Assembly (NCBI RefSeq): GCF_018617485.1
Contig: NZ_JACSKH010000004.1
Span: 1-64,000 of the forward strand
Source: Exiguobacterium sp. s124
GTDB lineage: Bacteria; Bacillota; Bacilli; Exiguobacteriales; Exiguobacteriaceae
DNA: 64,000 bases
Direction of reading: 5' to 3'
Shown here: piece by piece, positions 31,209-64,000 of the stretch
Layout: each line of letters opens with the position of its first letter
Numbering within the stretch: the first letter of the stretch is position 1
Notes under the pieces: model-generated
The model's input: the letters and a program-made list of their open reading frames with translations, nothing else
What the model was told of the DNA's origin: nothing
Databases searched by the model: none
Made by a program: the position numbers and the translations under genes

Positions 31209-31844
31209 TTGGGTATCTACTACACATATCAACGAGAAGAAGCGTGGCAGCAAGCTTTGAAGAAAGGATGTCTTGAAGCGAGTGGAGAATATGCGTTGTT
31301 CAGTGAAGGCGGATTGGAAGAGTTCAAGCCTGCCTATGATTGGATGGTCGAACAATACGAGAAGCGTATTGGTATTTCATTAAATGGGAACTATCCAATC
31401 TGGTGTTGGGATGAGTTCCCCGACTTAGGACGAGATGGACATATTGGCGAGGGGAACCGAGGTGTCGTCTTGACCGTTGAGATACCCGATGAAGAAGTGT
31501 TAGCATCCGAGTTTTCCTATTGGCATCATGTGCTTAGTAACTTTCCATTGTATGAGACGTTAGAAGAATATGACCGAGAAGACGAACCGGACGAACTGTT
31601 CGTGCGTCAATCGTGGGAGCGTATCTTTGACAAAGCATGGTGCGAAGCGTCCGTCGCGGACCAACCAAATGTCGGGTTGATCTATCAGTATGTCACCCAT
31701 CGTATCGAGCTTACGCAAGTGCGAGGGGTCATGCCATTTGTTGGACGAGGTAACAACTGGTTGGATCGAGTAACGGGGATGGGATGGCGGATCGGGTATA
31801 AGCTCGGACTCATTCGATCTAAACCGTTTGAATGGAAAGTGTGA
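31209..31844 (+). CDS. DUF3841 protein
   Basis: 211 residues from a TTG at 31209. YDWMVEQYEKRIG, YPIWCWDEFPDL, VEIPDEEVLASEFSYWHHVLSNF and QSWERIFD match my memory of DUF3841, a family without known function. No membrane segment. The start is uncertain because ribosome binding sites nearby are of imperfect spacing. Confidence 0.75.
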   Translation: MGIYYTYQREEAWQQALKKGCLEASGEYALFSEGGLEEFKPAYDWMVEQYEKRIGISLNGNYPIWCWDEFPDLGRDGHIGEGNRGVVLTVEIPDEEVLASEFSYWHHVLSNFPLYETLEEYDREDEPDELFVRQSWERIFDKAWCEASVADQPNVGLIYQYVTHRIELTQVRGVMPFVGRGNNWLDRVTGMGWRIGYKLGLIRSKPFEWKV

Positions 31845-31851
31845 TCAGACG

Positions 31852-31881
31852 AAACGCAGCTAACTTACGTCAGCTGCGTTT
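31852..31881. terminator. bidirectional terminator
   Basis: Stem AAACGCAGCT/AGCTGCGTTT between convergent genes. It includes the stop codon of the minus-strand gene. Confidence 0.82.
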
Positions 31882-32094
31882 TGTGTTCGAATCTAATTGT
31901 TGTTCGATGTGGTCGAGACGTTCGATTAATACCCTAAACTGTTCAGCGTTTTGACGCTCGAGTTCAAGTTTCTCCGCTGCGCGTTTTTCAAATCGATTGA
32001 CCACTTTGACAAGCCAAACAATTCCGAACACAATGGCGATGATTGGTAAGAAAAATGCAAGGCTTGCAAACAATGAACTGATGATGATATTCAC
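31870..32094 (-). CDS. small membrane-anchored coiled-coil protein
   Basis: 74 residues from GTG 32094 (GGGGGAAG upstream). One membrane helix (about 5-30) and then a coiled coil rich in Glu/Leu/Arg (about 35-68). Similar in plan to small bacillar membrane proteins with a trailing coiled coil. Function unknown. Confidence 0.7.
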   Translation of the reverse strand: MNIIISSLFASLAFFLPIIAIVFGIVWLVKVVNRFEKRAAEKLELERQNAEQFRVLIERLDHIEQQLDSNTKRS

Positions 32095-32225
32095 GAATAC
32101 TTCCCCCTTTGTCTATACCCTATTATACTTCCAAATCCATCCATCATGACAAGGGTAACAGTAGCATTTTATATTAAACATTCGTTAGGCTAAACATAAA
32201 GAATCGAAAAGAGGTCTCAATTAGG

Positions 32226-32996
32226 ATGAATTCAACAAATCGACAGCGTTCTATAAAGTGTCCGACCCGTCTTGGCACGGACGAGGATGGTTACGTCATC
32301 AACCAAACGTCCATCCGTCATATACAGCCTGAGTTTGAAACGGTCCTTTTCAAAGCAATCGAATTGGTGAAAGAAGCATTCGGTGAACAGTTACATAGCA
32401 TATACCTATACGGAAGCATCGGTCGCGGGACGGCCGTTGCTGGACAATCGGATTTAGATTTGACGGTGCTCGTGCATGAGGATGTCGATGCGACGGAATT
32501 GGTGGAGCAGACGGAGCGATTGCTAACGGAGCATCCGGAAGTCATTAAAATCGACTATGATATCGGGCGTCTGGATGCGGCGCTCGATCCTGCGAACCGT
32601 TTTGAATGGGGATTTTGGCTAAGACATCTATGTACGTGTGTCGACGGGGAAGATGTTTCGACTCAATTCCCGCGCATGAAGCCGGATGCTCGCGTTAGTG
32701 AGGCGTTGGACCAAGACTTGGTTTCCTCGATTGAAGCAGCTAAGTCTAAATTGCTTCGTGGACAGATGTCACATCTGGAGAAGCGCTCCATCGTGAAGCG
32801 CGTCATCCGAGGTTGGTATTTGACCATCAACGTGAAGGATGAGAGTTTTGCGACGACCGTAGACGAATGCTTGGAAATTTTGAGGCTTTACTACCCTGAA
32901 GATCAACAAGTGGTTCAGGGAAAGACATTCTTAATACAAAACGATATTTCGAATCAACAGCTTCTTGATTACTTGAATGATGTGGATTGGATGTGA
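32226..32996 (+). CDS. nucleotidyltransferase-fold protein
   Basis: 256 residues. [24 protein letters not shown] (about 60-83) has the Gly-Ser and Asp76/Asp78 of the NTase superfamily metal site. The remainder is helical, as in aminoglycoside-type or uncharacterised adenylyltransferases. The target molecule is unknown. The FAD-oxidoreductase gene follows within 3 nt. Confidence 0.85.
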
Positions 32997-32998
32997 AT

Positions 32999-34036
32999 AT
33001 GATGAAAAAACAAATCGTCATCATCGGAGCTGGTGTCAGTGGACTTTATGCTGCGACCCAACTTCATCAAAAAGGATATGACGTCACAATCTTTGAGGCA
33101 CGTGACCGAGTTGGTGGACGTATCTTCACGAAGGACGGCTATGACCTCGGTCCGACGTGGTATTGGCCGGATACGGAGAAGACCATCTCTGAACTCGTGG
33201 ATAGACTTGGACTCGAGTCATTCGTTCAACATACGACAGGACAAATGGTCCTCGAACGCCAGACAACACTTGCGCCGGAACGACATGTGTTGCCGGAAGA
33301 GAGCATCGTCTTATCCAAGCGTTTAGTCGGTGGGATGACGAGTCTGGTGGAAGCTCTGTATGCGAAGTTGCCCGATGACATCGTTCGGCTTGGACACCGC
33401 CTGACCTCGATCGAGCGACAGTCAGACCGAGTCCGCCTGACGTTCCAAAATGGTACGGTGCATCACACGGATGACGTGATCCTTGCGATTCCACCACGTC
33501 TCGTTGCGGAAGTGGAAATTGAACCGGCATTGTCAGCGCAAACGCGAAAAGCGCTCAAAACGACTCCCACATGGATGGCCTCCCAGGCAAAAGCCCTCAT
33601 CGTATACAAGACATCGTTCTGGCGAGAAGAAGGTCTGTCTGGCTTTGGGATGAGCTGGGTCGGTCCACTTCAAGAGATTCATGACGCTTCGCCAATGGAC
33701 GGTCAAGGCGCATTGTTCGGATTCTTCCGTCTGTCACCGGGAGAACGGGAAACGTTAGGAGAAGGACAGGTAAAGACGCGTGTCATCGAACAGCTGGAGA
33801 AGTTATACGGTCCGAAAGCAAATGACTTCGTGCGATTTCATTACATGGACTGGTCGACAGAATCAGAGACAGCGACATCTGACGACCTCATGCCGCTCAC
33901 GGCATTCCCAGCTTACGGTCCGATTGAACTCGGAGACCGACTTCATTTGATTGGTTCGGAGACAGATGCCCAGTTTGGGGGACATATCGAAGGGGCGTTG
34001 CGGTCGGCGGAGCGAGTTGTTCAAGGGTTGACATAA
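32999..34036 (+). CDS. flavin monoamine oxidase-family oxidoreductase
   Basis: 345 residues. FAD motif [17 protein letters not shown], then [16 protein letters not shown], and C-terminal [26 protein letters not shown] matching amine-oxidase family FAD binding. It probably oxidises an amine or related substrate. Two adjacent ATGs (32999, 33002) are possible starts. Likely cotranscribed with the nucleotidyltransferase gene. Confidence 0.87.
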
Positions 34037-34038
34037 AG

Positions 34039-34076
34039 AAAAGACAAATCGTCCGACTAGAGACGATTTGTCTTTT
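34039..34076. terminator. bidirectional terminator
   Basis: Fifteen-base-pair stem AAAAGACAAATCGTC/GACGATTTGTCTTTT between convergent genes. Confidence 0.93.
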
Positions 34077-34520
34077 TCATTTAAACTTCTGAATCATCAA
34101 CGCGAGCGAGCGATTGATCATCTTCATCTCGTCATCCTCGAGGACCGAAAACATCTCTTCGGCGAGGCGCTCTTCAATCGCATCGATTTGTTTCGAGTAC
34201 GCCAGACCGTTCGGACCGAGCCGGATGAAGCTTTCCCGAAGGTTCTCGGGGTTTTTTTCCCGAACGACGAAATCACGTTGTTCGAGCACTTTGAGCACCT
34301 GGCTGACGGCACTTTTGGAGATGGACATCTTCGTCGCGATCTCTGTCGTTGTCCACGTCTCTTGGCGCTTAAAGAGAAGCAACATCTGTTCTTGTTGATA
34401 ACTCAACTCGAACTCGTTCAGTTCCGTAAAATATTTCGTGAACAGCAAGTCGAGTTCATCGATTTGACGATACATCGTGAGGACTTGTTGTTTTCGTGTT
34501 TCGTTCAACGTGTCATTCAT
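34077..34520 (-). CDS. MarR family transcriptional regulator
   Basis: 147 residues. Winged helix with TTTEIATKMSISKSAVSQVLKVLEQRDFVVREKNPENLRESFIRL, the MarR recognition helix and wing. It starts 7 nt after the MFS stop, so both form one operon and the regulator is made after the exporter. It probably represses the operon through the inverted repeat at 35767-35786. Confidence 0.9.
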   Translation of the reverse strand: MNDTLNETRKQQVLTMYRQIDELDLLFTKYFTELNEFELSYQQEQMLLLFKRQETWTTTEIATKMSISKSAVSQVLKVLEQRDFVVREKNPENLRESFIRLGPNGLAYSKQIDAIEERLAEEMFSVLEDDEMKMINRSLALMIQKFK

Positions 34521-34527
34521 CCTTTCT

Positions 34528-35733
34528 TTACGGTGTCTGTAGGAACGTTTCGCTCCGGAAATACAAGAGGACACCACACACTAGTCCGATTATACCAAAT
34601 GCCAATAAGAGCGTTTGAATCGGTACAGATAAGGCGACGAGCACCGATAAAATGGCGAACGCAATCGGCTCAAGGCCAGAGGCGGCAAGCGACATGATGC
34701 TCATGACGCGCCCGATTTTATCAGGTTCGCTTTGTGCCTGCATGATGGTGACGGTCGGTAAATACACGAGCATGATCATAAATCCGCTCATAGAAGCCGC
34801 GACGGCGAGAAGCGGAATCGATTGAACTTGCGTGTAGAGGAAGAATGCACCGAGTGTCAGGAATAGGGCGCGGAAGACGAAGCGTCCACGATGAACCGAC
34901 CGCAATAATAGAATCAGGAAGCTTGCGACGAACGTTCCAACAGCGAGTCCGCCTTCGATGATACTTAAATCAAAAGCCGTCCCGCCGACCGCACCGACGA
35001 GAATCGGGATACTCATAATGAGTGGTCCCATGACGAACAAGTTGACGATGGCGATTGCGAACGTTCCACTTCGTAAAACAGGTGTCTTCGATACGTAACG
35101 AATCCCTTCTTTCAAATCAACGAGTACATCTTTTGGTGAGAGTGGAGCGACCTCGGGAATGTGATCTTGAATTAGCCGAGGCATAATCAAAATCGCCGAG
35201 AGGAAAATCAAGGCAGCGGCTGTGCCGAAACTGAGACCAAAACTTCCCCACGTCAGTAGAATCCCTGCGAGGAACGGACCGATGACGAACATCAGCTCGA
35301 GTGACCCTTGGAAGAGGGAGTTCGCCCGTTGTAACTGTTGACCTGATACGATTGAAGGCATAAGTGATGACAGTGCTGGGTAAGACATGCCGTCTAAAAG
35401 ACCAAACAATACGGAGATGATCAAGAGTGCTGCCACCGAATATGCGTCTGCAAAATGGAGCGAGACGACAATTAACATCAACACGCCTTGCCCGATATTC
35501 GTTAAACATAACAAGCGACTCTTTTGGAACCGATCGGCGAACACACCACCGAACACCATCATGACAACGCGAGGTAACGAAACTGCGGTCAAAATGATTC
35601 CGAGTAGCGTCGGTTGTTTCAACACATCAATGGTTAACCACGAGACGCTCAAGAAGAAAATTGAAAACCCGAGCGTGAGCGTCATCCCGGATAACCAGGT
35701 AAACACAAATCGGGAATTGCTTAATAAACTCAT
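34528..35733 (-). CDS. MFS exporter
   Basis: 401 residues, about 12 membrane helices, with GGVFADRFQKSRLLCL as the loop 2-3 motif. Similar in plan to enterobactin/macrolide-type MFS exporters. Cotranscribed with and probably repressed by the downstream MarR protein. The substrate is unknown, most likely a toxic compound. Confidence 0.88.
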   Translation of the reverse strand: MSLLSNSRFVFTWLSGMTLTLGFSIFFLSVSWLTIDVLKQPTLLGIILTAVSLPRVVMMVFGGVFADRFQKSRLLCLTNIGQGVLMLIVVSLHFADAYSVAALLIISVLFGLLDGMSYPALSSLMPSIVSGQQLQRANSLFQGSLELMFVIGPFLAGILLTWGSFGLSFGTAAALIFLSAILIMPRLIQDHIPEVAPLSPKDVLVDLKEGIRYVSKTPVLRSGTFAIAIVNLFVMGPLIMSIPILVGAVGGTAFDLSIIEGGLAVGTFVASFLILLLRSVHRGRFVFRALFLTLGAFFLYTQVQSIPLLAVAASMSGFMIMLVYLPTVTIMQAQSEPDKIGRVMSIMSLAASGLEPIAFAILSVLVALSVPIQTLLLAFGIIGLVCGVLLYFRSETFLQTP

Positions 35734-35766
35734 GTTGATAACCTCTTACTTTCATTCTTTAAGATA

Positions 35767-35786
35767 TAGTTAAGTTAACTAAACTA
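35767..35786. promoter_or_regulatory. candidate MarR operator
   Basis: TAGTTAAGTT/AACTAAACTA is a 20-bp inverted repeat with 9 of 10 positions paired, 34 bp upstream of the MFS start. Confidence 0.65.
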
Positions 35787-35894
35787 TAAGCTGAGACGGT
35801 CATATCGTCAAGAAACATGACTTTGGTACGAAAATGTAAAATAACGGAACTTTTCTCATGCTCATCCCGTATAGTGAAATAAGAGGTGAACGAG

Positions 35895-36344
35895 ATGAAT
35901 AAACAAGAACGACTACATACAATCAAACAATCAAATCGAAAGTGGCTTTTGCAACGCTTACTTTTAGCGCTTCCGGCAGGTCTTGCAGTTTACTTCCTCA
36001 TGCGAACTGACGGGAACATCTGGATCGGGTTCGCCATCATCGGTGGAGTGTTACTTGCGACGCGTTACTTTTTTTCGAATGAAGCCGAGGCAATCAGTCA
36101 ATTGTCGGACCAGGAACAGGTGAAACGTGTCGTGACACTGCAGTATCACCTGGACTTCCTCTTTATCGCATTGCTCGGACTCGTCAATCCGCTAGCCATC
36201 CGAATCATAGACTGGTCTTGGATTCCTGTGGTCCTCATCGGTGGGGCATTGCTTTACATCTTATGGGCGCAAGAGAAGCTCGATCAACAAATCCGCTGGC
36301 TCGACCCGGAACAACCGACACGTCGCGAGATTCGACGATTCTGA
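35895..36344 (+). CDS. paralogous membrane protein, member 2 (EQP subgroup)
   Basis: 149 residues from ATG 35895 (AGAGGTGA upstream). Starts MNKQERLHTI, about four membrane helices in two pairs. The loop motif LSDQEQVKRVVTLQ and the tail KLDQQIRWLDPEQPTRREI align with the next gene and more distantly with the FN..RY family. First of four tandem genes. Function unknown. Confidence 0.78.
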   Translation: MNKQERLHTIKQSNRKWLLQRLLLALPAGLAVYFLMRTDGNIWIGFAIIGGVLLATRYFFSNEAEAISQLSDQEQVKRVVTLQYHLDFLFIALLGLVNPLAIRIIDWSWIPVVLIGGALLYILWAQEKLDQQIRWLDPEQPTRREIRRF

Positions 36345-36357
36345 AAGGATGAATGAG

Positions 36358-36816
36358 ATGAATAAACAAGAACGAATCAATACGATTTATCGTTATCAGC
36401 AGCGTTGGCTTTTTTGGAGAATGGGGCTGGCAGGTCTGACCGGGATGTTCGTCTTTCTGGCACTCCAGTCAGACGGTGCGTCAAGATATATCATTCCATT
36501 AGGGATCACATTAGCGGGTATGTTGTTCGCAATCGGACGAGAGCGTCGCTTTGTTAGAAAGTTAACGGATGTGGAACAAGCCAAACGGATCATCGATTGG
36601 CAGTATGTATCAGAAATGGGGCTACTCGTCTTGTTGGCGATTCTCTTCCCATTCATCGTCTTGATCAATTGGCCGGAATGGTCGCTCTTCGTTGTATTCT
36701 TGGGCGGGGTTATCTTATTGCAAGTCGCACAGAAAAAGCTCGACCGACAGATTCCTGAGTATGACGTGGAGCAGCCAATGCGTCACGAAATCAAACTCGA
36801 CTTCGTGAAAGATTGA
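36358..36816 (+). CDS. paralogous membrane protein, member 3 (EQP subgroup)
   Basis: 152 residues from ATG 36358 (GAAAGGATGA upstream). Starts MNKQERINTI like member 2. Loop motif LTDVEQAKRIIDWQ and tail KKLDRQIPEYDVEQPMRHEI. Four predicted helices. Tandem with member 2 (13-nt gap), pointing to recent duplication. Confidence 0.78.
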   Translation: MNKQERINTIYRYQQRWLFWRMGLAGLTGMFVFLALQSDGASRYIIPLGITLAGMLFAIGRERRFVRKLTDVEQAKRIIDWQYVSEMGLLVLLAILFPFIVLINWPEWSLFVVFLGGVILLQVAQKKLDRQIPEYDVEQPMRHEIKLDFVKD

Positions 36817-36825
36817 GGTGACACC

Positions 36826-37290
36826 GTGGATAAAGCGGAACGACTTCAACGAATTGAACAGTTTGAGAAACGATTCACCCGTCTCAACATCATCGTGAGT
36901 GTAGTCATGCTAGGCGTATCCATCTATTTTCTATCGACATGGAGCCCATATAGCATTCTCTTACCAGGTGCCGCACTTCTTTACACGACATGGCTTGAAT
37001 GGAACAAGATGAGATTGCAGCAATCCTTCAATCCCTCGACACGCTATCATCGTCTGTTGCGAATCGATTTTGCTGTCATGTTGATCAGTTTAATATGGTT
37101 CATGATTTTGATTGCTATGCATTTCATTGGAATCAATATCTTACCGTGGATGAGTTGGACACTTCTCATTGGCGGACCGTGTCTCATCTTGTTTCCACGT
37201 TGGAGTGACCGAAAACAGTCCACACTTGATGAACACCACGTCACATCGGGCGAATGGTCACAGATAAGATTGAAGCGAAAAGTTACTTAA
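36826..37290 (+). CDS. paralogous membrane protein, member 4
   Basis: 154 residues from GTG 36826 after GAGGTGA. N-terminus MDKAERLQRIEQFEKRF, four helices, core QQSFNPSTRYHRLLRID and tail DRKQSTLDEHHVTSGEW. It bridges the two subgroups in position. The gap to the preceding gene is 9 nt. Confidence 0.78.
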   Translation: MDKAERLQRIEQFEKRFTRLNIIVSVVMLGVSIYFLSTWSPYSILLPGAALLYTTWLEWNKMRLQQSFNPSTRYHRLLRIDFAVMLISLIWFMILIAMHFIGINILPWMSWTLLIGGPCLILFPRWSDRKQSTLDEHHVTSGEWSQIRLKRKVT

Positions 37291-37341
37291 AAATATAAAA
37301 ACTCACAATAAAGCACTACAGATCTTGCGAAAGGAGTACAT

Positions 37342-37824
37342 ATGCTGACGAAAGAAAAGCGAATTGAACGGTTACTCGAGCAGGATGACAGTCAATGGCG
37401 TTGGGGATGGGGCGTCGCCATCGCGACTGTCGTGATGACATTCCTAATCGCTGCGCAGTACAGACTGTACGCACCGCTCATCGTGTTCATCAGTTTTTTT
37501 CCGTACCTCTGTCTCGAGTGGCGGAAGACAAAACTGCTCCTCACCTTTAACGAGAATGCGCGTTATCAACGTTTGGTATATACAGACTTCGGGATTCAAT
37601 GGCTCTGCTTCGTCTCGACCATCTGCCTATTGGCCGCCTATTATGCCGATTTGTTATCTCCTATTTTAGCGATTGCCGGGTTATTCGGAATCGGTGCCCT
37701 ATCAATTCTTGGACCATATGTCATCAATCGCTACTTGCACACCCTCGATCCCCATCATGTGCGAGGGAAAGAATTGCGCGAAGCGCGCGATCAGCGTTTC
37801 CATGAGTCCAAAACGAACACCTGA
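37342..37824 (+). CDS. paralogous membrane protein, member 5
   Basis: 160 residues, ATG 37342 after AAAGGAG. N-terminus MLTKEKRIERLLEQDD, four helices, core LLTFNENARYQRLVYTD and tail LHTLDPHHVRGKELREAR. Its stop codon lies in the following terminator hairpin. Confidence 0.78.
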   Translation: MLTKEKRIERLLEQDDSQWRWGWGVAIATVVMTFLIAAQYRLYAPLIVFISFFPYLCLEWRKTKLLLTFNENARYQRLVYTDFGIQWLCFVSTICLLAAYYADLLSPILAIAGLFGIGALSILGPYVINRYLHTLDPHHVRGKELREARDQRFHESKTNT

Positions 37825-37840
37825 AAAGGGTTCGTTTTTT
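37810..37840 (+). terminator. terminator of tandem paralogue operon
   Basis: Stem AAAACGAAC/GTTCGTTTT followed by T-run. It separates the four paralogues from the DUF606 genes. Confidence 0.8.
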
Positions 37841-37930
37841 GTTTGAGGACATCGGTCCTTTTCTTCTTGGTTGCCGAGGCGTAAGCTGACAATGTACACA
37901 GAACTAGAAGAAGAATCGAGGAAGACATTC

Positions 37931-38869
37931 ATGTTGGCTATTTTGATTGGATTGACGATTGGGATTTTGTTGCCGATGCAGACGAGCGTGAACTCTCGTT
38001 TGCGCCAGGTGGTCGGATCCCCATTCGTCGCATCATTTTTATCGTTTACCGTCGGGACCATCTTTTTGTCCTTGTTGCTCCTGTTGACCGGACAATCATT
38101 CGGCTTTGAGAGCTCAGTGATTCGGGAAGGTCCTGGTTGGATGTGGATTGGCGGATTATTAGGTGTCCTGTTTTTAACGGGGAATATTTTGTTGTTCCCG
38201 AGACTTGGAAGTGTCCAGACTGTCATCATGCCGATCTTCGGACAGATTTTAATGGGATTATTGATTGACCATTTTGGCTGGTTCAACTCGGTCGAGCATC
38301 CGATCACGGCGTTACGCTTGTTCGGGGTCGTACTCGTCTTACTTGGCGTCATCGGAACGGTCGCGTTATCCGACTGGCTCAACCGCCGAAGAGGCAAGTT
38401 GGTCGTCTCGATGGAAACAGACACCGAGAACTTGAACCTTTGGCGACTGTTCGGGATTTTCACGGGAATGATGAGTGCTACGCAAACGGCCATTAACGGC
38501 TATTTGGGAACGGTGCTTGAATCGGCACTGAAAGGGGCACTCGTCTCCTTCGTTGTCGGGACGATGGCACTTTTACTCATTTTACTCGTCTCGCGTCAAC
38601 CGGTTCCGCTCGGACAATTGAAAGGTCAACCATGGTGGATTTGGCTTGGTGGAATCATTGGGGCGCTCTTCATCGGAGGAAACGTCCTCATCGTTCCGAT
38701 CGTCGGGACAGGGATTGCTGTCATCATCGTCATTGTCGGGCTGTTATGTGGTAGCTTGCTAATCGATCGCTTCGGTTGGTTCGGAGCGAAGAAGAACCCG
38801 GTCACCGGTGTTCAACTCGTGAGCCTGATCGTCATGGTGCTTGGGATTGTATTGATTCGTTTGTCATAA
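37931..38869 (+). CDS. DUF606/YdcZ-type tandem DMT transporter
   Basis: 312 residues from ATG 37931 (GAGGA upstream; earlier in-frame starts less well placed). Two homologous halves of about five helices, with QTSVNSRLRQVVGSPFVASFLSFTVGT in the first half and QTAINGYLGTVLESALKGALVSFVVGT in the second. Each half ends in LLIDHFGWF or LLIDRFGWF. This is a fused duplicate of the short DUF606 units encoded next door. Predicted small-molecule transporter of the DMT superfamily. Confidence 0.85.
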   Translation: MLAILIGLTIGILLPMQTSVNSRLRQVVGSPFVASFLSFTVGTIFLSLLLLLTGQSFGFESSVIREGPGWMWIGGLLGVLFLTGNILLFPRLGSVQTVIMPIFGQILMGLLIDHFGWFNSVEHPITALRLFGVVLVLLGVIGTVALSDWLNRRRGKLVVSMETDTENLNLWRLFGIFTGMMSATQTAINGYLGTVLESALKGALVSFVVGTMALLLILLVSRQPVPLGQLKGQPWWIWLGGIIGALFIGGNVLIVPIVGTGIAVIIVIVGLLCGSLLIDRFGWFGAKKNPVTGVQLVSLIVMVLGIVLIRLS

Positions 38870-38881
38870 AGGGGGAGAAAG

Positions 38882-39307
38882 ATGAGAGGTGTGTTGTTTG
38901 CAATCAGTGGAGGCTTCTTTCTGACGCTACAAAGTGTGGCGAATGCGCGAATCAGTTCACAGATTGGGACGTGGCAAGCGGCGACGTTGACGCAGTTCAC
39001 GGGATTCGCTGTCGCCCTTCTCGTCATGTTAGTACTGCGAGATCGCACGTATGCACAGATGCGTCATGTGAACCCGCTTTATTTATCGGGTGGTGCGTTT
39101 GCGGCGCTCATCTTGTTCAGTAATATGACGGCCGTTCATGAGCTCGGGGTCACACTTACGATTTCCCTGTTTCTCATTGCACAGTTGGCGCTTGCGCTCG
39201 TCATCGATTGGCGCGGCTGGTTCGGGATGGTACGTCGGAACTTAAACGCGGCGCAGTTGTTCGGGGTGTTCATGATGATTGCGGGCGTCATCTTATTAAA
39301 ATGGTAA
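38882..39307 (+). CDS. DUF606/YdcZ-type half-size DMT protein A
   Basis: 141 residues, five helices. SGGFFLTLQSVANARISSQIGTWQAATLTQFTGF and LALALVIDWRGWFGM match one repeat of DUF606. AAAGGGGGAG precedes the ATG. Likely pairs with the other half-size gene at 39992 into a heterodimer, with the Crp-type gene between them. Confidence 0.85.
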   Translation: MRGVLFAISGGFFLTLQSVANARISSQIGTWQAATLTQFTGFAVALLVMLVLRDRTYAQMRHVNPLYLSGGAFAALILFSNMTAVHELGVTLTISLFLIAQLALALVIDWRGWFGMVRRNLNAAQLFGVFMMIAGVILLKW

Positions 39308-39319
39308 GGGGAGACGGAA

Positions 39320-39979
39320 ATGGTTGATGCATACGTGAAACGATTTGAATTAGACGTTTTGCCCGTTGCTGCGCAACAAAAATTGCAACTCGTCCATTAC
39401 GAAGCGGGCGATGTCATCTGTACACAAGGTGATGAAGCGGAGCACCTCCGTTTCTTAGTGAAAGGAAAGATTCGCGTTTCACACACTTCCGCTACCGGCA
39501 AGCGACTCGTCCTTTCTTTTAAATATCCGCTCGATTTAATTGGAGATATCGAGTATATTCAGCGGACTCCTTACTTGAATACGGTCGAAGCGGTCACGGA
39601 AGTCGAGATGCTCGTCATCCGGTTCGAAGACTTGGTCCAGCACGCACACCAAGAAGTCGCCTGGTTACATTATTTGTTAGAAGAAATCACCCGGAAATTC
39701 GAACGGAAGTCGCAATCGCTCAGCTTCAACCTGTTCTATCCCGTTGAAGTACGCCTGGCGAGTTATCTGTTATCGATGACGCCAGATGACCAAACGCTCG
39801 GCTCGACCGTGGATCAATTGACGGATATTGCCGATTTGATTGGGACGAGTTATCGTCATGTGAATCGAACGCTTCGGCGTTTTGTTGAAATAGGCTTGAT
39901 TGAGCGCAATCGAAGGATGATTACGATTATTAATCGAGAAGGGTTGATAGAGATTGTCGGGGAGAGCATTTATGAATAG
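39320..39979 (+). CDS. Crp/Fnr-family regulator (YeiL-like)
   Basis: 219 residues. N-terminal cyclic-nucleotide-binding-like jelly roll (GDVICTQGDEAEHLRFLVKGKIRV), long dimer helix and C-terminal winged helix with TDIADLIGTSYRHVNRTLRRFVEIGLIER. No Cys cluster for an iron-sulfur site as in Fnr. Sits between the two half-size DUF606 genes, so probably regulates their operon. YeiL-type assignment is from memory of the context. Confidence 0.85.
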   Translation: MVDAYVKRFELDVLPVAAQQKLQLVHYEAGDVICTQGDEAEHLRFLVKGKIRVSHTSATGKRLVLSFKYPLDLIGDIEYIQRTPYLNTVEAVTEVEMLVIRFEDLVQHAHQEVAWLHYLLEEITRKFERKSQSLSFNLFYPVEVRLASYLLSMTPDDQTLGSTVDQLTDIADLIGTSYRHVNRTLRRFVEIGLIERNRRMITIINREGLIEIVGESIYE

Positions 39980-39991
39980 GAGGGAAGAACC

Positions 39992-40465
39992 GTGGCGATT
40001 GGAATGATGCTTGCCATCTTCGGTGGAATGCTCGTCTGTGTGCAAAATACGTTTAACGCCAACGTCAAAAAGCGTGTCGGTGCATGGGCGACGACGACAC
40101 TCGTTCTCTGTCTTGGATTTTTAGCGTCACTACTCATTGGGTTGTTCCGAGAAGGCAGTGCCTTGTTCCAAACGACGGATATGGAGACATGGTACTGGTT
40201 CAGCGGAATCCTCGGCGTCGGGGTCGTCATGAGTGTGACGCAAGGTGTCGAGCGGCTCGGACCGAGTTACGCCATCTCGATTGTCATGGTGTCACAAATC
40301 CTGTTTGCTCTCCTCTGGGATACGTTAGGCTGGTTCGGATTGACGGCCGTCCCGTTCACATGGAAGACGGTCGTTGGGATTGTGTTAATCGTCGGTGGGG
40401 TACTCGTGTTTCAGTTGAGTGGTAAGACACGAGTCACATCAGCCAAAGTCTCAAAGGCGGGTTAA
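39992..40465 (+). CDS. DUF606/YdcZ-type half-size DMT protein B
   Basis: 157 residues from GTG 39992 after AGGAGGG. Five helices, NTFNANVKKRVGAWATTTLVLCLGF and LFALLWDTLGWFGL as in protein A. Completes the DUF606-Crp-DUF606 operon and is followed by a terminator. Confidence 0.85.
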   Translation: MAIGMMLAIFGGMLVCVQNTFNANVKKRVGAWATTTLVLCLGFLASLLIGLFREGSALFQTTDMETWYWFSGILGVGVVMSVTQGVERLGPSYAISIVMVSQILFALLWDTLGWFGLTAVPFTWKTVVGIVLIVGGVLVFQLSGKTRVTSAKVSKAG

Positions 40466-40469
40466 CGAC

Positions 40470-40497
40470 AAGCATCTGATACCCATCAGGTGCTTTT
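40470..40497 (+). terminator. terminator of DUF606 operon
   Basis: Eleven-base-pair stem AAGCATCTGAT/ATCAGGTGCTT with loop ACCC, then T run. Confidence 0.9.
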
Positions 40498-40594
40498 TCC
40501 TTTTTAATGGAAAATCCTCGAAACTTCGCTTTCAGATTGGTAAGATAAAATTACCGAGCGAATTGGATGATTTTTACTGCTGGAGGTGTATGAG

Positions 40595-41056
40595 ATGTTG
40601 CGTGACGAACGAATGGAGTACTTATACGATCAATCGTGGACGAAAAAAGGCCCACTTCTCGTGATGGTCATCGGTGTAGTGACGGCACTTTGGTTATGGT
40701 TCAATGATTCAAAAATGAGCCTGTCTCTGTTCATTTTCTGCGCGGTGATGTTCATGCCGCTTCTGTTTGCGACGTGGCATAAAGTTCAGTTGTTTTTACA
40801 GTTTAACGATTCATCCACATACCGGCGCTTCATCTATTTAAAAGGTGTGTCTCAGTTTATTCTCTTGATCGGTGTCATGTCGATGTTGGCGTTCTACTCA
40901 CTGAAGTACATCACGCTAGACACGATGAGTCTTGGAGGGGCCATGCTTATCGCAAGTTGTCTTCTTTTAGATTCATGGGTCGACTGGAAGATTCTAAAGG
41001 TCGATGACGAGCATGTCGTCGAGAGCTTATTAGGACTGATGAATCGGGAGAAATAA
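40595..41056 (+). CDS. paralogous membrane protein, member 6
   Basis: 153 residues from ATG 40595 (GGAGG nine nt upstream; an in-frame GTG at 40586 overlaps that site). Four helices, core FLQFNDSSTYRRFIYLK and tail DWKILKVDDEHVVESL. Tandem with member 7 (16-nt gap). Confidence 0.77.
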   Translation: MLRDERMEYLYDQSWTKKGPLLVMVIGVVTALWLWFNDSKMSLSLFIFCAVMFMPLLFATWHKVQLFLQFNDSSTYRRFIYLKGVSQFILLIGVMSMLAFYSLKYITLDTMSLGGAMLIASCLLLDSWVDWKILKVDDEHVVESLLGLMNREK

Positions 41057-41072
41057 AGAAGGAGGAAGGTAA

Positions 41073-41537
41073 ATGGATAAACAAGAACGTATACCAAAAA
41101 TGGTCGAACATGACCTCGATGGCCGAGGGGTCGGTGCGGTATTTGGGATCATCGGTCTGTTTTTCTTTCTGGTTGTTTCGGTCATAAAAGGTGTCACGGT
41201 GACGACGGTTGCCTTCTCTTTCCTCGTGACCCAACTGCCGATGCTCTATCAAGCGTGGCGACGGCTGAAGTTGTTACGCACATTCAACGAAGACGAAGAA
41301 TACCAACGCCTCGTTCGTCGGGAATTTCTCATTGTCGTCGCTATGTTTGCGTCACTTGGTATATTCACCTTTCTCACGTGGTTCGTATTGGATTCGATGC
41401 AGGAACTACTCGGTATCGCATTGATTGGCGTCATCCCGTTTCTCATCTGGTACATGACGATGGACCGTAAACTGCGTGAAGCGGACCCGGAACATGTGAC
41501 GAATCGGGAATTACGAAGCGCACGTCGTGAACAATAA
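41073..41537 (+). CDS. paralogous membrane protein, member 7
   Basis: 154 residues, ATG 41073 after AAGGAGGAAGG. N-terminus MDKQERIPKMVEHD, four helices, core LLRTFNEDEEYQRLVRRE and tail DRKLREADPEHVTNREL. A terminator follows. Confidence 0.78.
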   Translation: MDKQERIPKMVEHDLDGRGVGAVFGIIGLFFFLVVSVIKGVTVTTVAFSFLVTQLPMLYQAWRRLKLLRTFNEDEEYQRLVRREFLIVVAMFASLGIFTFLTWFVLDSMQELLGIALIGVIPFLIWYMTMDRKLREADPEHVTNRELRSARREQ

Positions 41538-41569
41538 AAATCAGCTCTGACACGCGTCAGGGCTGATTT
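41538..41569. terminator. bidirectional terminator
   Basis: Fourteen-base-pair stem AAATCAGCTCTGAC/GTCAGGGCTGATTT with loop ACGC between convergent transcripts. Confidence 0.9.
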
Positions 41570-41571
41570 GT

Positions 41572-41661
41572 TTATGAGAACATCGCAACGAGAAAGCCGC
41601 AGACGACCATCCCGATTGTATAAAATGTGAACTGGTGTCGTTCCCAAAACGAGTCATTCAT
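41572..41661 (-). CDS. 29-residue membrane peptide coupled to ABC ATPase
   Basis: MNDSFWERHQ followed by FTFYTIGMVVCGFLVAMFS forms a polar head and one membrane helix. The ATG overlaps the stop of the ABC ATPase gene (ATGA), and the stop lies just before the operon terminator. The coupling and the clean membrane helix argue for a real peptide, possibly an accessory subunit of the transporter. Confidence 0.6.
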   Translation of the reverse strand: MNDSFWERHQFTFYTIGMVVCGFLVAMFS

Positions 41662-42386
41662 CGTGTCACCGCCACATCATCAAGCGGTGTATCGACCATC
41701 CGAACGAATGCTTCGTCCGGGTCGGTCGTTCCAGATTCTTTGAGCCAGTCTTGGAAGTCACCTTCATATAAAATACGTCCACCATGCAGGAAGATGACGT
41801 GGGCATCAAGTTGAACCAAATCGTGCAACTGATGCGTCGAGATGAGACATGTCTTGCCTTCGTCGACGAGACGTTGCATGCGGCGCATGATTTGAATGCG
41901 GGACGCCGGGTCGACCCCGCTCGTCGGTTCATCAAATAAATAGAGAGAACGCTTGATGGAAGACAATAGCGTCACGAAGAGCCATTTTTTCTCCCCGACG
42001 GACATCTTCCCGAGTTTCATCGTCCATAGATGTTCGAACAGTTCTTGTTCTCGGGACGTCGAAAGGTTATTTACATAAGACTCGAGTTTCTTGAAGTCGG
42101 GGCGTTGCGACAGTCGTCCAATGAAATAGGCGAAGTCTTTCCCTGTCAATTCATGATGGTTATACATGAGTTGTGTCAAATACAACATGTCCGTCGTCGG
42201 GACGAGGTCGAGTGACGCTTTGTCAACGGGAAGGGTACCCGTCATACAATCAAACAATGTCGTCTTCCCGGCACCATTTTGTCCGATCAACACGTTCAGC
42301 TTATTGGGTTGCAGGCTGAACGAGACGCTGTCGAGCACAGGACGCGTCGCTTTCGGATAGCGATAAGTGAGTTGGTTTACGTGCAT
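41658..42386 (-). CDS. ABC transporter ATP-binding protein, atypical signature
   Basis: 242 residues. Walker A GQNGAGKTT (about 38-46), Walker B LYLFDEPTSGVD and switch His in LISTHQ. The signature loop reads KMSVGEKKW instead of LSGGQ, an unusual variant. Operon order is permease, ATPase, 29-residue peptide, as in ABC-2 type exporters. It may export a lipid or peptide, or give bacteriocin resistance. Confidence 0.87.
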   Translation of the reverse strand: MHVNQLTYRYPKATRPVLDSVSFSLQPNKLNVLIGQNGAGKTTLFDCMTGTLPVDKASLDLVPTTDMLYLTQLMYNHHELTGKDFAYFIGRLSQRPDFKKLESYVNNLSTSREQELFEHLWTMKLGKMSVGEKKWLFVTLLSSIKRSLYLFDEPTSGVDPASRIQIMRRMQRLVDEGKTCLISTHQLHDLVQLDAHVIFLHGGRILYEGDFQDWLKESGTTDPDEAFVRMVDTPLDDVAVTR

Positions 42387-42395
42387 AAGAACCTC

Positions 42396-43121
42396 CTAGC
42401 GTGTGATAAGTGAGACGAGACTGAAGCGTTTCAACGCAATCGCTCCGATGATGAAATAACCGAGTATGGAAAGGGATGTCGCCCATACTCCGAACGAGAG
42501 GTCGACTTGAGTCGTCAGGTGCAGCAATCCGAGCGCGAATTCATGGAGCGCATAGAATGGATTGAGGAAGCTGAACCATTGATCAGGTGACTTGATTGCC
42601 AATAAAAAGAGCGGAAACATCAGTATGTTCACGAATGTCCCGAGACTCGATACTTTCACTGGAAGTGCCGTAATGGCGACACTTGCAATCGCGAACGGAA
42701 TACTACCGATCAATACGAGTAGAGACGTTGCAATCAACTTGAACGAGAAGAACCCGTGTACGAGCGTGACGACCGTTGTGAATAAAAGCAGGCTGATGGA
42801 GGCAAATAAGAGTTGCGCCAAGATGACGGCGATGACATACGTCAGTTTGTTCCCAGAAATCATCACGTACGTTTTCATTAGTCCGTATTCACGCATACGG
42901 GCGAGTTCTATGCCGACCCCGTTCACATATGTAGCAAGAATAATATACACCCAGAAATAAGAGAGCCCTGGGTAGTATTCCGCTGTCGTTGCTTGGCGAA
43001 TATCTGAAAACGACTGCGTCAAGGCGATCATGAGCGGAATTCCGAATGTCCAGATGAATGGAACTTTATCAGTGACGACAACTTTGGCATACATAAAGAA
43101 ATAACTTGTGATTTGATGCAT
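42396..43121 (-). CDS. ABC-2 type permease
   Basis: 241 residues from ATG 43121 (ACGGAGGA upstream). Six membrane helices with the ABC-2 plan: a large first loop after helix 1, then helices at about 60-80, 100-125, 130-155, 165-185 and 215-235. The partner ATPase starts 9 nt downstream. The transported molecule is unknown. Confidence 0.82.
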   Translation of the reverse strand: MHQITSYFFMYAKVVVTDKVPFIWTFGIPLMIALTQSFSDIRQATTAEYYPGLSYFWVYIILATYVNGVGIELARMREYGLMKTYVMISGNKLTYVIAVILAQLLFASISLLLFTTVVTLVHGFFSFKLIATSLLVLIGSIPFAIASVAITALPVKVSSLGTFVNILMFPLFLLAIKSPDQWFSFLNPFYALHEFALGLLHLTTQVDLSFGVWATSLSILGYFIIGAIALKRFSLVSLITR

Positions 43122-43235
43122 CCTGTTCCTCCGTTTGAATGTTTGAATGTTTGTATCGTAGCACAATATACGGAAGGTTATTGGGAAAAGTTTCAAAAAA
43201 ATAATCCCTCATATCGAATGAGGGATTGAAGATAA

Positions 43236-44732
43236 TCATTTCACTTTGTCGCGTTTCGCGATTTTGTCACTCACTTGCTGACCGCTGAGCGTCACCATGG
43301 GCATACCGCCGCCCGGGTTGACGGTTCCGCCGACGAAGTAGAGGTTGTGGTAAAGTTCACTCTGTTTCTTATGTTTGAAGCCGCCATTTCGATTCTTGTC
43401 GGCGACCGTCCCATAAATGGCACCTCGATCCGATCCATATGTCCGCTCGATATCATGGGGCGTCCATACGTCACGTGTCACCGTATGTTCGCGCAAGCCC
43501 TCGAGCCCCATCCGTTCTAACTTATCGAGTACACGCTCTTCAAAAGCGGCATACTCTTCTTCCGAGAACGGCACATCCTGAATATACGGAATGTGGGGCA
43601 AGATTTTGATGTTTTCATGTCCTGGTGGCGCTTGAGTCGGGTCGGTCTTGTTGACGTTGACGAGGTAAATCGTCGGATCGTCCGGCAATTCGTGTTTCTC
43701 AAAGATTTTGTCCATTTGCTCATGTAGGTTCTCAGAGAAGAAGAAGTTATGATGTGCCAGTTGTGGATAAGCTTTCTTCACCCCGAGATGGAGGACGAAT
43801 CCGGAGCTGGCCGGTTCGTATTTATCGACGAGTTTGTCGACGTACTGTTCGTCCGCGTCGACCATCTTCTGATAGAAAGGAATGACTTCCATGTTCGAGA
43901 CGAAATAATCGGCTGAACGGAGACGTCCATCCTCAAGCTCGATCGCTGAAATCTTTCCATTTACCGTATGGGCACGAACGACGCCTTCTCCGGTATGTAA
44001 CTTCACCCCGATCTCTTCGGCAAGCTTCGTCAATCCTTCCGCGAGCTTGTGAGTCCCGCCTTCGACGTACCAACAGCCTTGGGCATATTGCATGTAAATC
44101 ATCATGTTTAAGACGGCTGGTGCGTTATATGGAGACGACCCGACATATTTGACGTAATACGAGAGCATGTCCCGAAGATGCGGATTACTAATGCGCTTCT
44201 TGATGGCGCTATACATGGTCGACGTCAAATCGAACCCAAAGAGCGTTGGGAAAATACCTGTCTTCATGACAGCTTCTAAAGGTGACTCAAAGCCTTCGGC
44301 CAAGTATCCTTTCTCTGTCGTCTTATAAATGCGTGCTGCGTAATTCAGCAGCTCACGATATTCCTGCATGTCTTTTCGAGATAGGGAAGGATTTGCACGT
44401 TGCATCTGTTCGAGGTCATGGTACAAATCGAGTACGGTCTCGTCCGGGAAGAACGAGCGCCATTCGAGCTCTAATCGTTTGATGGACACATAGTCCTCCA
44501 TACGTTTGCCGCTTCCGCGGAACAGCTTATCGAAGATGTGGGGCATCGTTAAAATCGAGGGCCCGAGGTCGAAACCGAACCCATCCTGTTCGAGCCGATT
44601 CACTTTCCCGCCGATATGGTCGTTCTTTTCATAGAGTGAGACGTCGTATCCTTTTTGAGTGAGCGAGATGGCTGCAGACAATCCGCCGAGCCCTCCGCCG
44701 ATGACGATCACCGACTTATCCACTGATGGCAT
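43236..44732 (-). CDS. phytoene desaturase-family (CrtN/CrtP-like) carotenoid oxidoreductase
   Basis: 498 residues from ATG 44732 (AAGGCGG upstream). N-terminal FAD motif VIVIGGGLGGLSAAISLTQKGYDV, then EKNDHIGGKVNRLEQDGFGFDLGPS, and C-terminal LYFVGGTVNPGGGMPMVTLSGQ, the hallmark of the CrtI/CrtN desaturase family. Such enzymes desaturate or oxidise C30/C40 carotenoids. No synthase (CrtM/CrtB) lies next to it. Which step it catalyses (desaturase or terminal oxidase) cannot be decided here. Confidence 0.88.
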   Translation of the reverse strand: MPSVDKSVIVIGGGLGGLSAAISLTQKGYDVSLYEKNDHIGGKVNRLEQDGFGFDLGPSILTMPHIFDKLFRGSGKRMEDYVSIKRLELEWRSFFPDETVLDLYHDLEQMQRANPSLSRKDMQEYRELLNYAARIYKTTEKGYLAEGFESPLEAVMKTGIFPTLFGFDLTSTMYSAIKKRISNPHLRDMLSYYVKYVGSSPYNAPAVLNMMIYMQYAQGCWYVEGGTHKLAEGLTKLAEEIGVKLHTGEGVVRAHTVNGKISAIELEDGRLRSADYFVSNMEVIPFYQKMVDADEQYVDKLVDKYEPASSGFVLHLGVKKAYPQLAHHNFFFSENLHEQMDKIFEKHELPDDPTIYLVNVNKTDPTQAPPGHENIKILPHIPYIQDVPFSEEEYAAFEERVLDKLERMGLEGLREHTVTRDVWTPHDIERTYGSDRGAIYGTVADKNRNGGFKHKKQSELYHNLYFVGGTVNPGGGMPMVTLSGQQVSDKIAKRDKVK

Positions 44733-44918
44733 ATATTCGCCGCCTTTCCGAAGTATTATTTTCAAAAAACAGAATGATTGCTACCTCTTCTATTCCCGTT
44801 TCCAAATGAATTGAACATGCTTTTACGGATTTGCCACATCCACAAAGATGTCATCCCTGAACGGAGAAAAGTTTTGTATAGTAAGGGAACAGAGTCTGAA
44901 CGAAAGTAGGAATGTAGG

Positions 44919-45302
44919 ATGATCGTAAAAACAATTACACTTCAATTTGCGAACGGCGATGAGATCATGATCCCGTTTGACGACATTGAGTCATGTCGGA
45001 TGCATGATATAAAAGACGGTATGCGTGTAGCGACGGATGGTCAGGTGATTAAAGAAAAAGTGATACATGGACTCGACCTCGTATTGAAAGATTCAGCGAA
45101 TCAAGTCGAATGGAGCGGACACGAGGAACCGTTTGACCGTCTGCGTCAAATCGCGGACTTACAGCACCTCACTTTTGAGTTTGAATGGATGCGAGGGAAG
45201 TCGTACCGCATCGCGTGGCATGATTTGGAGGCGTCACAAAACGTTTATCAGGAGACAACTGAAGAGAATGGAAGCTTGCACGTACAGGTTCGCGTCTCAT
45301 AA
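44919..45302 (+). CDS. protein of unknown function
   Basis: 127 residues, soluble, rich in Asp/Glu and beta-strand-like segments (ITLQFANGDEIMIPFDDI at the start). No known motif. ATG 44919 has GTAGGAATG upstream. Single gene ending in a hairpin shared with the convergent tetR gene. Confidence 0.65.
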   Translation: MIVKTITLQFANGDEIMIPFDDIESCRMHDIKDGMRVATDGQVIKEKVIHGLDLVLKDSANQVEWSGHEEPFDRLRQIADLQHLTFEFEWMRGKSYRIAWHDLEASQNVYQETTEENGSLHVQVRVS

Positions 45303-45305
45303 AAT

Positions 45306-45335
45306 AAGCCTCTCGCAAAAATATGCGGGAGGCTT
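45306..45335. terminator. hairpin between convergent genes
   Basis: Stem AAGCCTCTCGC/GCGGGAGGCTT (one G-T pair). Only modest T tracts on either side, so a weak terminator. Confidence 0.65.
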
Positions 45336-45943
45336 TAGTCGTTTGATTTCACACCGCCGGCGACGAGCGGTCCTTCAAACGTGATCGTATAGATAATGCG
45401 AGCGATGTCTTCCGCTGTCTCTTCTGCTGACGGATTATTCAACCATTCGTAGATGACCCCCATGTGCGCCGAAGAGAGATAGGCGACTAGATACGGGGGC
45501 GGCACCATCATTTTGTCCGGGTCAAACAACGTAGCAGGCGAACGCTGAAACAAGGCAGCCTGCATGAATGCACGGAGCTTCGTCTGAAATGTCGGGTCTC
45601 CGTTCGGTCCAAACAGTGGCTTCATGATGATTTGGTTGTCTTCGATGAAGCGGATGAACGGAATGAGGTAATGGTACGAGTTGTCGGTCCGTTCGTCTCC
45701 GAAAATATGTGGCAAATGATGAATCAACTTTTGTTCGGCCTCTCGAAAGATTTCGTTGACGCATTTCTCCATCAACTCGAACTTATCCACATAGTGACTA
45801 TAGAACGTACCTCGATTGATTCCAGCTCGTTCGGTCAATTGCTTGACGGTGACGGCTTCGAATCCTTGCTCTTCGATGAGACTGAAGAAGGCATCTTTAA
45901 TCAATTTTTTCGTACGGATGACGCGTAAATCGGTTTGTTCCAT
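45335..45943 (-). CDS. TetR family regulator
   Basis: 202 residues from ATG 45943 (AAGGAGA upstream). HTH IKDAFFSLIEEQGFEAVTVKQLTERAGINRGTFYSHYVDKFEL is a typical TetR DNA-binding domain. Divergent to the ABC exporter genes at 46115-47849, its likely target. The ligand is unknown. Confidence 0.92.
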   Translation of the reverse strand: MEQTDLRVIRTKKLIKDAFFSLIEEQGFEAVTVKQLTERAGINRGTFYSHYVDKFELMEKCVNEIFREAEQKLIHHLPHIFGDERTDNSYHYLIPFIRFIEDNQIIMKPLFGPNGDPTFQTKLRAFMQAALFQRSPATLFDPDKMMVPPPYLVAYLSSAHMGVIYEWLNNPSAEETAEDIARIIYTITFEGPLVAGGVKSND

Positions 45944-45979
45944 ATTATTTCTCCTTTTTCTCAACACAATCCATCCATC

Positions 45980-45995
45980 TGTCGGAAAACCGACA
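45980..45995. promoter_or_regulatory. candidate TetR operator
   Basis: TGTCGG-AAAA-CCGACA palindrome in the divergent tetR/ABC intergenic region, about 20 bp upstream of the ABC promoter -35. Confidence 0.5.
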
Positions 45996-63897: not shown

Positions 63898-64000
63898 GAT
63901 AACCTTTGTAAGCGGATACGTTTCATTTATTAATTGTTGAAAAAAGTCGAACGAATCATTGAGGGAATATTCGGAAAATGTGAAACAATGAAGGGTGAGA
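63898..64000. other. window end, no gene called
   Basis: The last 100 bp end with GAAGGGTGAGA, a ribosome-site-like string, so a plus-strand gene may start just beyond the window. Nothing else is supported. Confidence 0.4.

Follow-up and report, generated by a model that had tools for sequence, protein, structure and literature searches.

A family of small four-helix membrane proteins in Exiguobacterium, expanded in tandem arrays and associated with promoter sequences of the extracytoplasmic function type

Introduction

What might a set of seven small membrane proteins of like size and layout, encoded close together in one bacterial genome, do for the cell that keeps them? The question is raised by the first 64,000 nt of contig NZ_JACSKH010000004.1 of Exiguobacterium sp. 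s124 (the whole stretch analysed, hereafter the window), in which such proteins are encoded by a single gene, a tandem of four and a pair. Exiguobacterium is a non-sporulating, widespread genus. The original prediction described the seven as a paralogous expansion with conserved polar motifs, of no described family, which might form a functional system. Here we report that the proteins are homologous, that their paralogs are stable and under purifying selection, and that conserved promoter sequences of extracytoplasmic function (ECF) type precede several of their operons. By analogy, we propose with moderate confidence that the family is part of an envelope-stress regulon, probably membrane-protecting, and sigma-W-like in its working.

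Homology and sub-types

The seven open reading frames (ORFs) lie on the forward strand and encode proteins of 149-160 residues. Member 1 (F29325; 29325..29792, 155 aa) is a single gene. The A array is headed by member 2 (F35895; 35895..36344, 149 aa), followed after 13 nt by member 3 (F36358; 36358..36816, 152 aa), after a further 9 nt by member 4 (F36826; 36826..37290, 154 aa, GTG start), and after 51 nt by member 5 (F37342; 37342..37824, 160 aa). Transporter genes separate member 5 from member 6 (F40595; 40595..41056, 153 aa), which stands 16 nt before member 7 (F41073; 41073..41537, 154 aa).

A hidden Markov model (HMM) of six of the proteins scored the left-out seventh at 45.6-67.0 bits, compared with at most 16.0 bits for 1000 shuffles and at most 8.7 bits for 254 hydrophobic control ORFs. 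As the leave-one-out scores lie far above both sets of controls, the likeness of the seven is not a composition effect. A search of the s124 genome with member 7 alone found five of the six others (E 1.3e-13 to 7.8e-4), and missed member 3.

Two sub-types occupy the same alignment columns, one bearing FN...RYxRLV and DPEHVT, the other LTxxEqaKRii and DPEQPTrrE. In the FN/HVT type, the cytosolic loop reads FNESVRYRRLV (member 1), FNPSTRYHRLL (member 4), FNENARYQRLV (member 5), FNDSSTYRRFI (member 6) or FNEDEEYQRLV (member 7), and the tail DxxHV(T/R/V); in the EQP type, the loop reads DQEQVKRVV (member 2) or DVEQAKRII (member 3), and the tail D(P/V)EQP. Across the 206 of 210 family genes (length 135-180) taken for the conservation table and tree, conservation sits in the inner segments (K-ERI, W..R.K.L..FN....Y.RLV and DR.L...DPEHVT..EL), with D138 conserved at 91%.

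The original prediction thus proves sound as to the ORFs themselves, the loop and tail motifs of both sub-types, the significance of the shared likeness on alignment and HMM comparison, and the paralogous expansion with conserved polar motifs. Its count of seven is real for the window, but was set by the window edge: six further members (B1-B6) lie just beyond.

Predicted fold and topology

AlphaFold2 models of one protein per sub-type, with mean predicted local distance difference test (pLDDT) scores of 92.1 for member 7 and 93.2 for member 2, agree in the four-helix topology that had been claimed from the sequence. When compared by secondary structure, both have the same layout of four long helices with short outer loops, a cytosolic middle loop and a C-terminal helix. 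The three inner segments carry 5.2, 5.8 and 5.4 K/R per protein (the last also 5.0 D/E) and the outer loops 0.5 and 0.4 K/R, which fits both ends and the middle loop being cytosolic, the sidedness being read from these charges. The transmembrane (TM) cores are almost uncharged (means 0.2-1.4%, highest single position 10%), and no TM core contains a conserved charged or strongly polar residue. Such cores, together with the cytosolic conservation, count against transport and in favour of a membrane-resident protein that binds partners.

The family is apparently undescribed, as had been surmised, and no family of the searched libraries fits it. Foldseek gave no match in the PDB at E <= 0.001 for the model of either member 7 or member 2, and none among viral structures for that of member 7. 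VIA-align of member 7 reached a best Z of 8.4, within the range of common helical arrangements, and a sequence search of the PDB gave no match below E 0.1. None of the seven reached a cut-off in Pfam or NCBIfam; among SMR transporter profiles, that of EbrA matched member 2 weakly (E 0.0035). When 45 members were compared with Pfam, NCBIfam, PADLOC and PHROGs, matches were scattered, with no more than three of the 45 per family among those listed. The best of all, to ftsW (2/45, best E 9.9e-6), and those to 7tm_3 (1/45 at 1.6e-5) and Peptidase_U4 (2/45 at 2.7e-5) were taken as common hydrophobicity. Nor do the 2TM-4TM effectors of SLATT and CBASS systems fit: PADLOC '2TM' matched two of 45 members (best E 5.6e-4), '4TM' one (0.02) and SLATT_4 one (0.0066).

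Profile comparisons by hhalign are to be read with caution, as its probabilities are unreliable for these TM profiles: the full profile against its own reverse gave 96%. An internal duplication of two TM helices, suggested by a probability of 51-52% between the N- and C-terminal halves, was rejected on this ground, reversed controls giving 90%. The family profile scored 0.4% against that of YdcZ, and 1.1% against five DUF443 sequences (reversed control 3.7%); since reversed controls score high, these negative comparisons are weak evidence taken alone. They stand beside the library searches, in which PF04657 (DMT_YdcZ) matched none of the seven, nor any of the 45 members among the 25 of 55 families listed, and TIGR01218 (DUF443/TsaI) matched one of the 45 at E 0.0046.

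In the literature covered on Exiguobacterium and on tandem small membrane proteins in Firmicutes, which included parts of the E. antarcticum paper PMC6016940, we found no description of the family and no mention of the DPEHVT motif.

Promoter sequences

A sequence of ECF-sigma promoter type, GGAACTTTTCTCATGCTCATCCCGTA (35846..35871, forward strand), lies 49 nt upstream of member 2. A second, GAAACTTTTCCCAATAACCTTCCGTA (43169..43194, reverse strand), lies upstream of the permease gene of the ATP-binding cassette (ABC) operon that adjoins member 7. A third, GAAACAATGAAGGGTGAGATTACGTA, belongs to the B array; only its start falls in the window (63982..64000, forward strand; L037:2983-3008), the end of which cuts through it. 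Upstream of the A array, a block TGTAAAAnAACGGAACTT followed by CGTATA is common to 13 aligned loci, and stands out within otherwise diverged intergenic DNA. In a scan of 763,540 bases on both strands, of stretches mostly picked around family genes, the form GGAACTT-N13-16-CGTA occurred 15 times, each time 45-76 nt upstream of a family gene, one of the 15 sites being in the sister genus.

Of 95 family leader genes, 39 have the looser form GRAAC-N15-18-CGTA 30-110 nt upstream, as against 14 of the 465 leaders of other kinds (Fisher p 2e-22, for rows that are not independent); four scrambled motifs were found 0 or 1 times per leader group. Among the 80 of these 95 family leaders that were sorted by hand into 11 classes, the motif precedes the first gene of the A array (14/14, all loci for which the array start was available), the first gene of the B array in genus 1 (6/6), the single genes of polysaccharide clusters (3/3), the single gene of L056 (1/1), and the gene that follows the SUKH position in all cases but one (10/11). 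The 14 non-family ORFs with the motif comprise six copies of the array-side ABC permease, one 89-aa ORF and, from the sister genus, five copies of a small membrane protein of 115 aa and two of an FtsX-type permease. Once its start is corrected, the ABC permease carries the motif in all eight loci where the gene start was found.

These boxes fit, by their letters, those published for ECF sigma factors, namely (T)GAAACNT and CGT(C/A)T (PMC5126115), or GGAACTT for RpoE, ATTGAAACCTTT for SigW, and AAC/CGT in general (PMC8103513).

ECF-type motifs accompany other genes as well. In eight of 11 cases examined (L040-L043, L045 and L053-L055), and in eight of nine within the far clade, a 67-aa, one-TM, zinc-ribbon-like protein gene that is divergent to F40595-type genes carries an ECF-type motif; the window has none. 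Within the window, GAAAC-N16-CGTA at 25102-25126 lies just upstream of a small ORF, possibly a further regulon member, that spans 25131-25370 and encodes a hydrophobic segment and two CxxC pairs, and another copy at 140-164 lies approximately 190 nt upstream of a 312-aa coiled-coil-like ORF (356-1294). In three genomes (L149, L150 and L151), a cluster which, as named from its sequence, is exopolysaccharide-like adjoins a lone family gene that has an ECF-type motif.

Paralog evolution

In a FastTree phylogeny of the 206 sequences, each of the seven falls into its own clade (supports 0.90-1.00), in which a sampled locus has roughly one copy: members 5 and 7 each have 15 tips in 15 loci, with 14/14 for member 6, 13/13 for member 4, 12/12 for member 3, 10/10 for member 2, and 13 tips in 12 loci for member 1. 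Given seven near-single-copy clades, the duplications appear older than the split of the sampled genus clades. The paralogs look specialised rather than interchangeable. Sampled at the level of species, array content shows orthogroups kept between species, with 1-15 matches per genome.

Within the close clade, and with pairs at or below 39% identity excluded, the seven members had omega values of 0.054-0.403, and those neighbours whose orthologs are credible had values of 0.027-0.200. By region, it was 0.099-0.198 in all nine regions (166 pairs), with no hypervariable patch. We found no diversifying selection; both gene-wide and regional values show purifying selection. Between the two genus clades, positional orthologs are approximately 30-48% identical (58% once), and most flanking genes 51-97% (39-75% for a DUF3841 protein).

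The B array and taxonomic distribution

Six further members, B1-B6, are encoded at contig C9:64047-66776 (L037:3048-5777), some 40-50 bases past the window end, in frames that abut or overlap (gaps of -1, 0, -17, -22 and -14). A profile made from 145 members of the other loci gave, in a single step, significant scores for five of the six (E 1.4e-17 to 2e-6). The exception, B2, scored 14.6 bits, below the 15.3 bits of the best control, and is assigned to the family from iterated searches and from its position within the array. That control, a 152-aa ORF of the sister genus (L051:11535-11990), is perhaps itself a distant relative of the family, as perhaps are the 115-aa small membrane proteins found near sister-genus family genes (L049:5794-6138, L050:13836-14180, L052:12413-12757, L155:4664-5008 and L156:16778-17122), all five of which have ECF-type motifs. 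Two family members are broken, at L055:2973-3482 by an internal stop and at L142:9331-9857 by a frame break.

The seven-member profile has 1-15 matches per genome in 19 of 19 genomes of the genus, and at least one match in 37 of 38 Exiguobacteriaceae genomes; a wider profile has 4-6 matches in 18 of 19 sister-genus genomes. Relatives of member 7 at 84-86% identity occur in E. qingdaonense, E. aestuarii, E. profundum and Exiguobacterium sp. s48. Class and phylum samples were each searched with nine candidates scored in nearly all genomes listed. In the class sample (profile A2), 131 of 398 genomes matched at E <= 0.01, 37 of them Exiguobacteriaceae, and the best match outside had E 3.3e-5. Upon rescoring of 12 genomes and inspection of 15 loci, one of which lacked an ORF, the outside matches were mostly dismissed as pieces of longer or unrelated ORFs (EamA-like or chromate-transporter-like, by reading alone); a 156-aa ORF outside Exiguobacteriaceae (G072, L089) gave a partial match. 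In the phylum sample, 15 of 398 genomes matched at E <= 0.001, including the own genome, the best other at 1.0e-4. Plasmid and phage sequences, searched by tblastn with member 5 only, gave no match. So far, then, the family is seen convincingly only in Exiguobacteriaceae, matches elsewhere being weak and doubtful.

Neighbouring genes and transcription units

The original prediction had noted that the family genes are interleaved with DUF606 transporters, and this neighbourhood proves to be conserved. A two-domain DMT_YdcZ gene (PF04657), YdcZx2 (37904..38869), follows the A array on the forward strand. Of the genomes that have YdcZx2, 12 of 13 in one genus and 15 of 18 in the other show a family gene immediately 5' of it on the same strand, in surroundings that otherwise have little in common in the sister-genus stretches read. 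Genome G024 has neither family gene nor YdcZx2 at the thresholds used. Co-transcription is another matter. A terminator-like hairpin (37810..37838, forward strand; -13.7 kcal/mol, z -2.98) with a U-rich tail closes the A array, and terminator-like hairpins stand between family gene and YdcZx2 in both genera (four gaps folded, 12 viewed as sequence), weaker in one close relative (z -1.88) and in two sister-genus loci (z -1.06 and -1.57). These hairpins argue against co-transcription, so that the adjacency is one of synteny, and the YdcZ genes are probably neighbours in separate transcription units.

Further along the forward strand lie YdcZ-a (38882..39307, PF04657), a Crp-type regulator (39320..39979; best match YeiL, NF007707, E 2.5e-27, under its cut-off), YdcZ-b (39992..40465, PF04657), and a terminator-like hairpin with a T-rich tail (40470..40495) between YdcZ-b and member 6. 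A 12-bp hairpin of -19 kcal/mol (41540..41567; z -6.67), to which no strand was assigned, separates member 7 from the convergent ABC operon on the reverse strand, which comprises an ATPase (41658..42386) and a permease (42396..43121, start probably ATG at 43121), both named from a reading of the sequence. A scan of 28000-46000 with Rfam found no RNA family. The window also encodes a DUF3841 protein at 31209-31844 (PF12952, E 5e-20), of which several related loci have an additional, diverged copy.

In nine of 15 genus-1 loci, tblastn places a SUKH-1 gene between array members (L040:13375-14160, L041:4305-5093, L042:16836-17642, L043:2766-3581, L045:3723-4535, L046:3274-4065, L047:14542-15357, L054:12923-13714 and L055:3510-4301), identified as PF09346 at E 9e-17 to 8e-16 in the three loci scanned; the window and L037 have no SUKH match. 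These SUKH-1 (SMI1/KNR4) genes carry a C-terminal extension. SUKH is a superfamily rich in immunity proteins (PMC3482391). LXG toxins (PF04740) were found in none of the 38 family genomes, the B. subtilis control being recovered, and no toxin gene was recognised among the array ORFs read, LXG being the extent of systematic toxin searching. The second array, of six genes, the promoters and the SUKH gene inside the array go beyond the original prediction, whose suggestion of a functional system gains support from the kept orthogroups, purifying selection, abutting or overlapping B frames and conserved ECF-type promoters.

Discussion

How might these proteins work? Members are predicted to be small proteins of the cytoplasmic membrane, with four TM helices and a polar belt, conserved and cytosolic. 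The promoter sequences suggest that an ECF-type sigma factor probably reads several of the operons; if so, the proteins would be made under envelope stress. They would then probably sit in the bilayer, where they may hold or stabilise membrane complexes via the cytosolic belt, and probably raise tolerance of membrane-active agents alongside the adjoining ABC transporter of the same promoter type. In Bacillus, protection against membrane toxins is given by the sigma-W proteins YfhLM and YdbST and by a transporter, YknWXYZ (PMC8144471), the largest sigma-W gene groups comprise envelope-stress, membrane and resistance proteins (PMC3498285), and there are membrane antitoxins, for example YitQ and SdpI, that lack mutual similarity (PMC6818787).

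Several observations weigh against this proposal. None of the 14 F40595-type or 12 F29325-type leaders has the motif, and members 6 and 1 of the window likewise lack it. Among sister-genus leaders, the strict motif was found in 3/6, 0/2, 2/5 and 0/6 of four classes (5/19 in total); admitting near forms raises these to 4, 2, 2 and 4 (12/19), but the near variants were defined after the sequences were seen. Counts confined to the window show no enrichment of GGAAC-N15-18-CGTA (three found against 2.0 expected), and although GAAAC-N15-18-CGTA is enriched (eight found against 2.9 expected, a count reached in 0 of 100 shuffles), none of the eight precedes a family gene. Because window-only counts are not decisive, the promoter case rests on conservation and enrichment across loci. 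The protective role, in turn, rests on analogy, no member having been tied to a named toxin or antimicrobial.

The arrays also invite a different account, in which each paralog neutralises a different membrane-targeting toxin of a competitor, as TsaI (DUF443) does against TspA, a toxin of the type VII secretion system. Tandem, same-strand, closely spaced genes (gaps of 9-51 nt in A, -22 to 0 in B) for distantly related polytopic paralogs would suit such polyimmunity, as would the SUKH-1 genes within arrays, the want of a recognised toxin gene among the array ORFs read, and the faster divergence of family genes than of most neighbours; loci of such arrangement have been described (PMC3482391). 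Polyimmunity loci, however, vary even between strains (PMC3482391), whereas here orthogroups are kept across the sampled genus loci, and with regional omega at 0.10-0.20 there is no hypervariable patch; these two findings bring the immunity-array account into conflict with the data. Coupled with the absence of LXG toxins from the family genomes, of detected homology to DUF443, and of a SUKH match in the window or L037, they lead us to regard it as unlikely. That the proteins build one hetero-oligomeric complex in the membrane, or a few, each paralog being a subunit with a fixed and distinct position, would explain why distinct orthogroups are retained together and why the cytosolic belt is conserved, and the abutting or overlapping B frames may favour balanced synthesis; yet members also occur singly (F29325-type, polysaccharide-cluster genes, L056) and array content varies, B4 being missing in L147 and L148, which makes this idea rather improbable.

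Two further accounts look to transport. Family members may have begun as accessory or regulatory subunits of a YdcZ-type exporter and later spread to other loci, in keeping with the persistent position of a family gene directly 5' of YdcZx2 where little else of the neighbourhood is kept, and with the joint absence of both from G024. Against this stand the hairpins between the genes in both genera, the six of 19 genus-1 genomes that keep the family without a YdcZx2 match, and the B arrays, F29325-type genes and polysaccharide-cluster members that have no YdcZ neighbour, and we consider such an origin improbable. Finally, four TM helices, the weak match of member 2 to SMR transporters, and weak family-profile matches inside ORFs that read as EamA-like might indicate a lineage-specific transporter or channel; with no conserved charged or strongly polar residue in the TM cores, no PF04657 match, a negative comparison with the YdcZ profile and no PDB fold match at the threshold used, this seems very improbable.

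A more ambitious form of the envelope-stress proposal is a lineage-specific, stress-induced machine, in which a dozen or so ancient paralogs of fixed role would be co-produced from ECF-sigma promoters and assemble as hetero-oligomers, and these, alongside an ABC transporter under common regulation, would shield the cytoplasmic membrane or repair it. We think this doubtful; if true, it would be a means of membrane protection with no sequence relation to PspA/LiaH, flotillins or known immunity proteins. More immediately, Exiguobacterium genomes have a few to approximately 15 genes each of a family that the searched libraries do not recognise. The promoter blocks make a testable regulon of these hypothetical proteins, and hint at where Exiguobacterium keeps part of its envelope-stress defence. 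If the paralogs form assemblies, or guard against particular membrane toxins, the six-gene B array would offer a compact object for genetics and structure.

Set beside known systems, the family shares with DMT_YdcZ (PF04657, DUF606) its loci and its nature as small membrane proteins, but the seven have neither a PF04657 match nor profile similarity. With the TsaI/DUF443 (TIGR01218) arrays of Firmicutes, such as the tsaI strings of PMC9484751, it has in common tandem strings of diverged, small polytopic membrane paralogs; the TsaI profile, however, has 208 positions and five TM helices with the N-terminus out (PMC7456083), as opposed to approximately 150 aa, four TM helices and both ends in, and unlike TsaI arrays the family has stable orthogroups, no LXG genes in 38 genomes and no profile similarity. 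Polyimmunity loci (PMC3482391) resemble the arrays in their same-strand tandems, short gaps, lack of recognised toxins and, in nine of 15 loci, a SUKH-1 gene, whereas the Exiguobacterium members match no known immunity family and their orthogroups are conserved between species. From the sigma-W membrane proteins of B. subtilis (YfhLM, YdbST, YknWXYZ) the family is set apart, without direct alignment, by fitting no Pfam or NCBIfam family, and by having expanded in tandem, with up to 15 matches in a genome; its regulation, unlike that of the sigma-W regulon, is read from promoter sequence only. Nonetheless, ECF-type boxes occur in both, and in both small membrane proteins and a transporter stand under one promoter type, in what is putatively an envelope defence.

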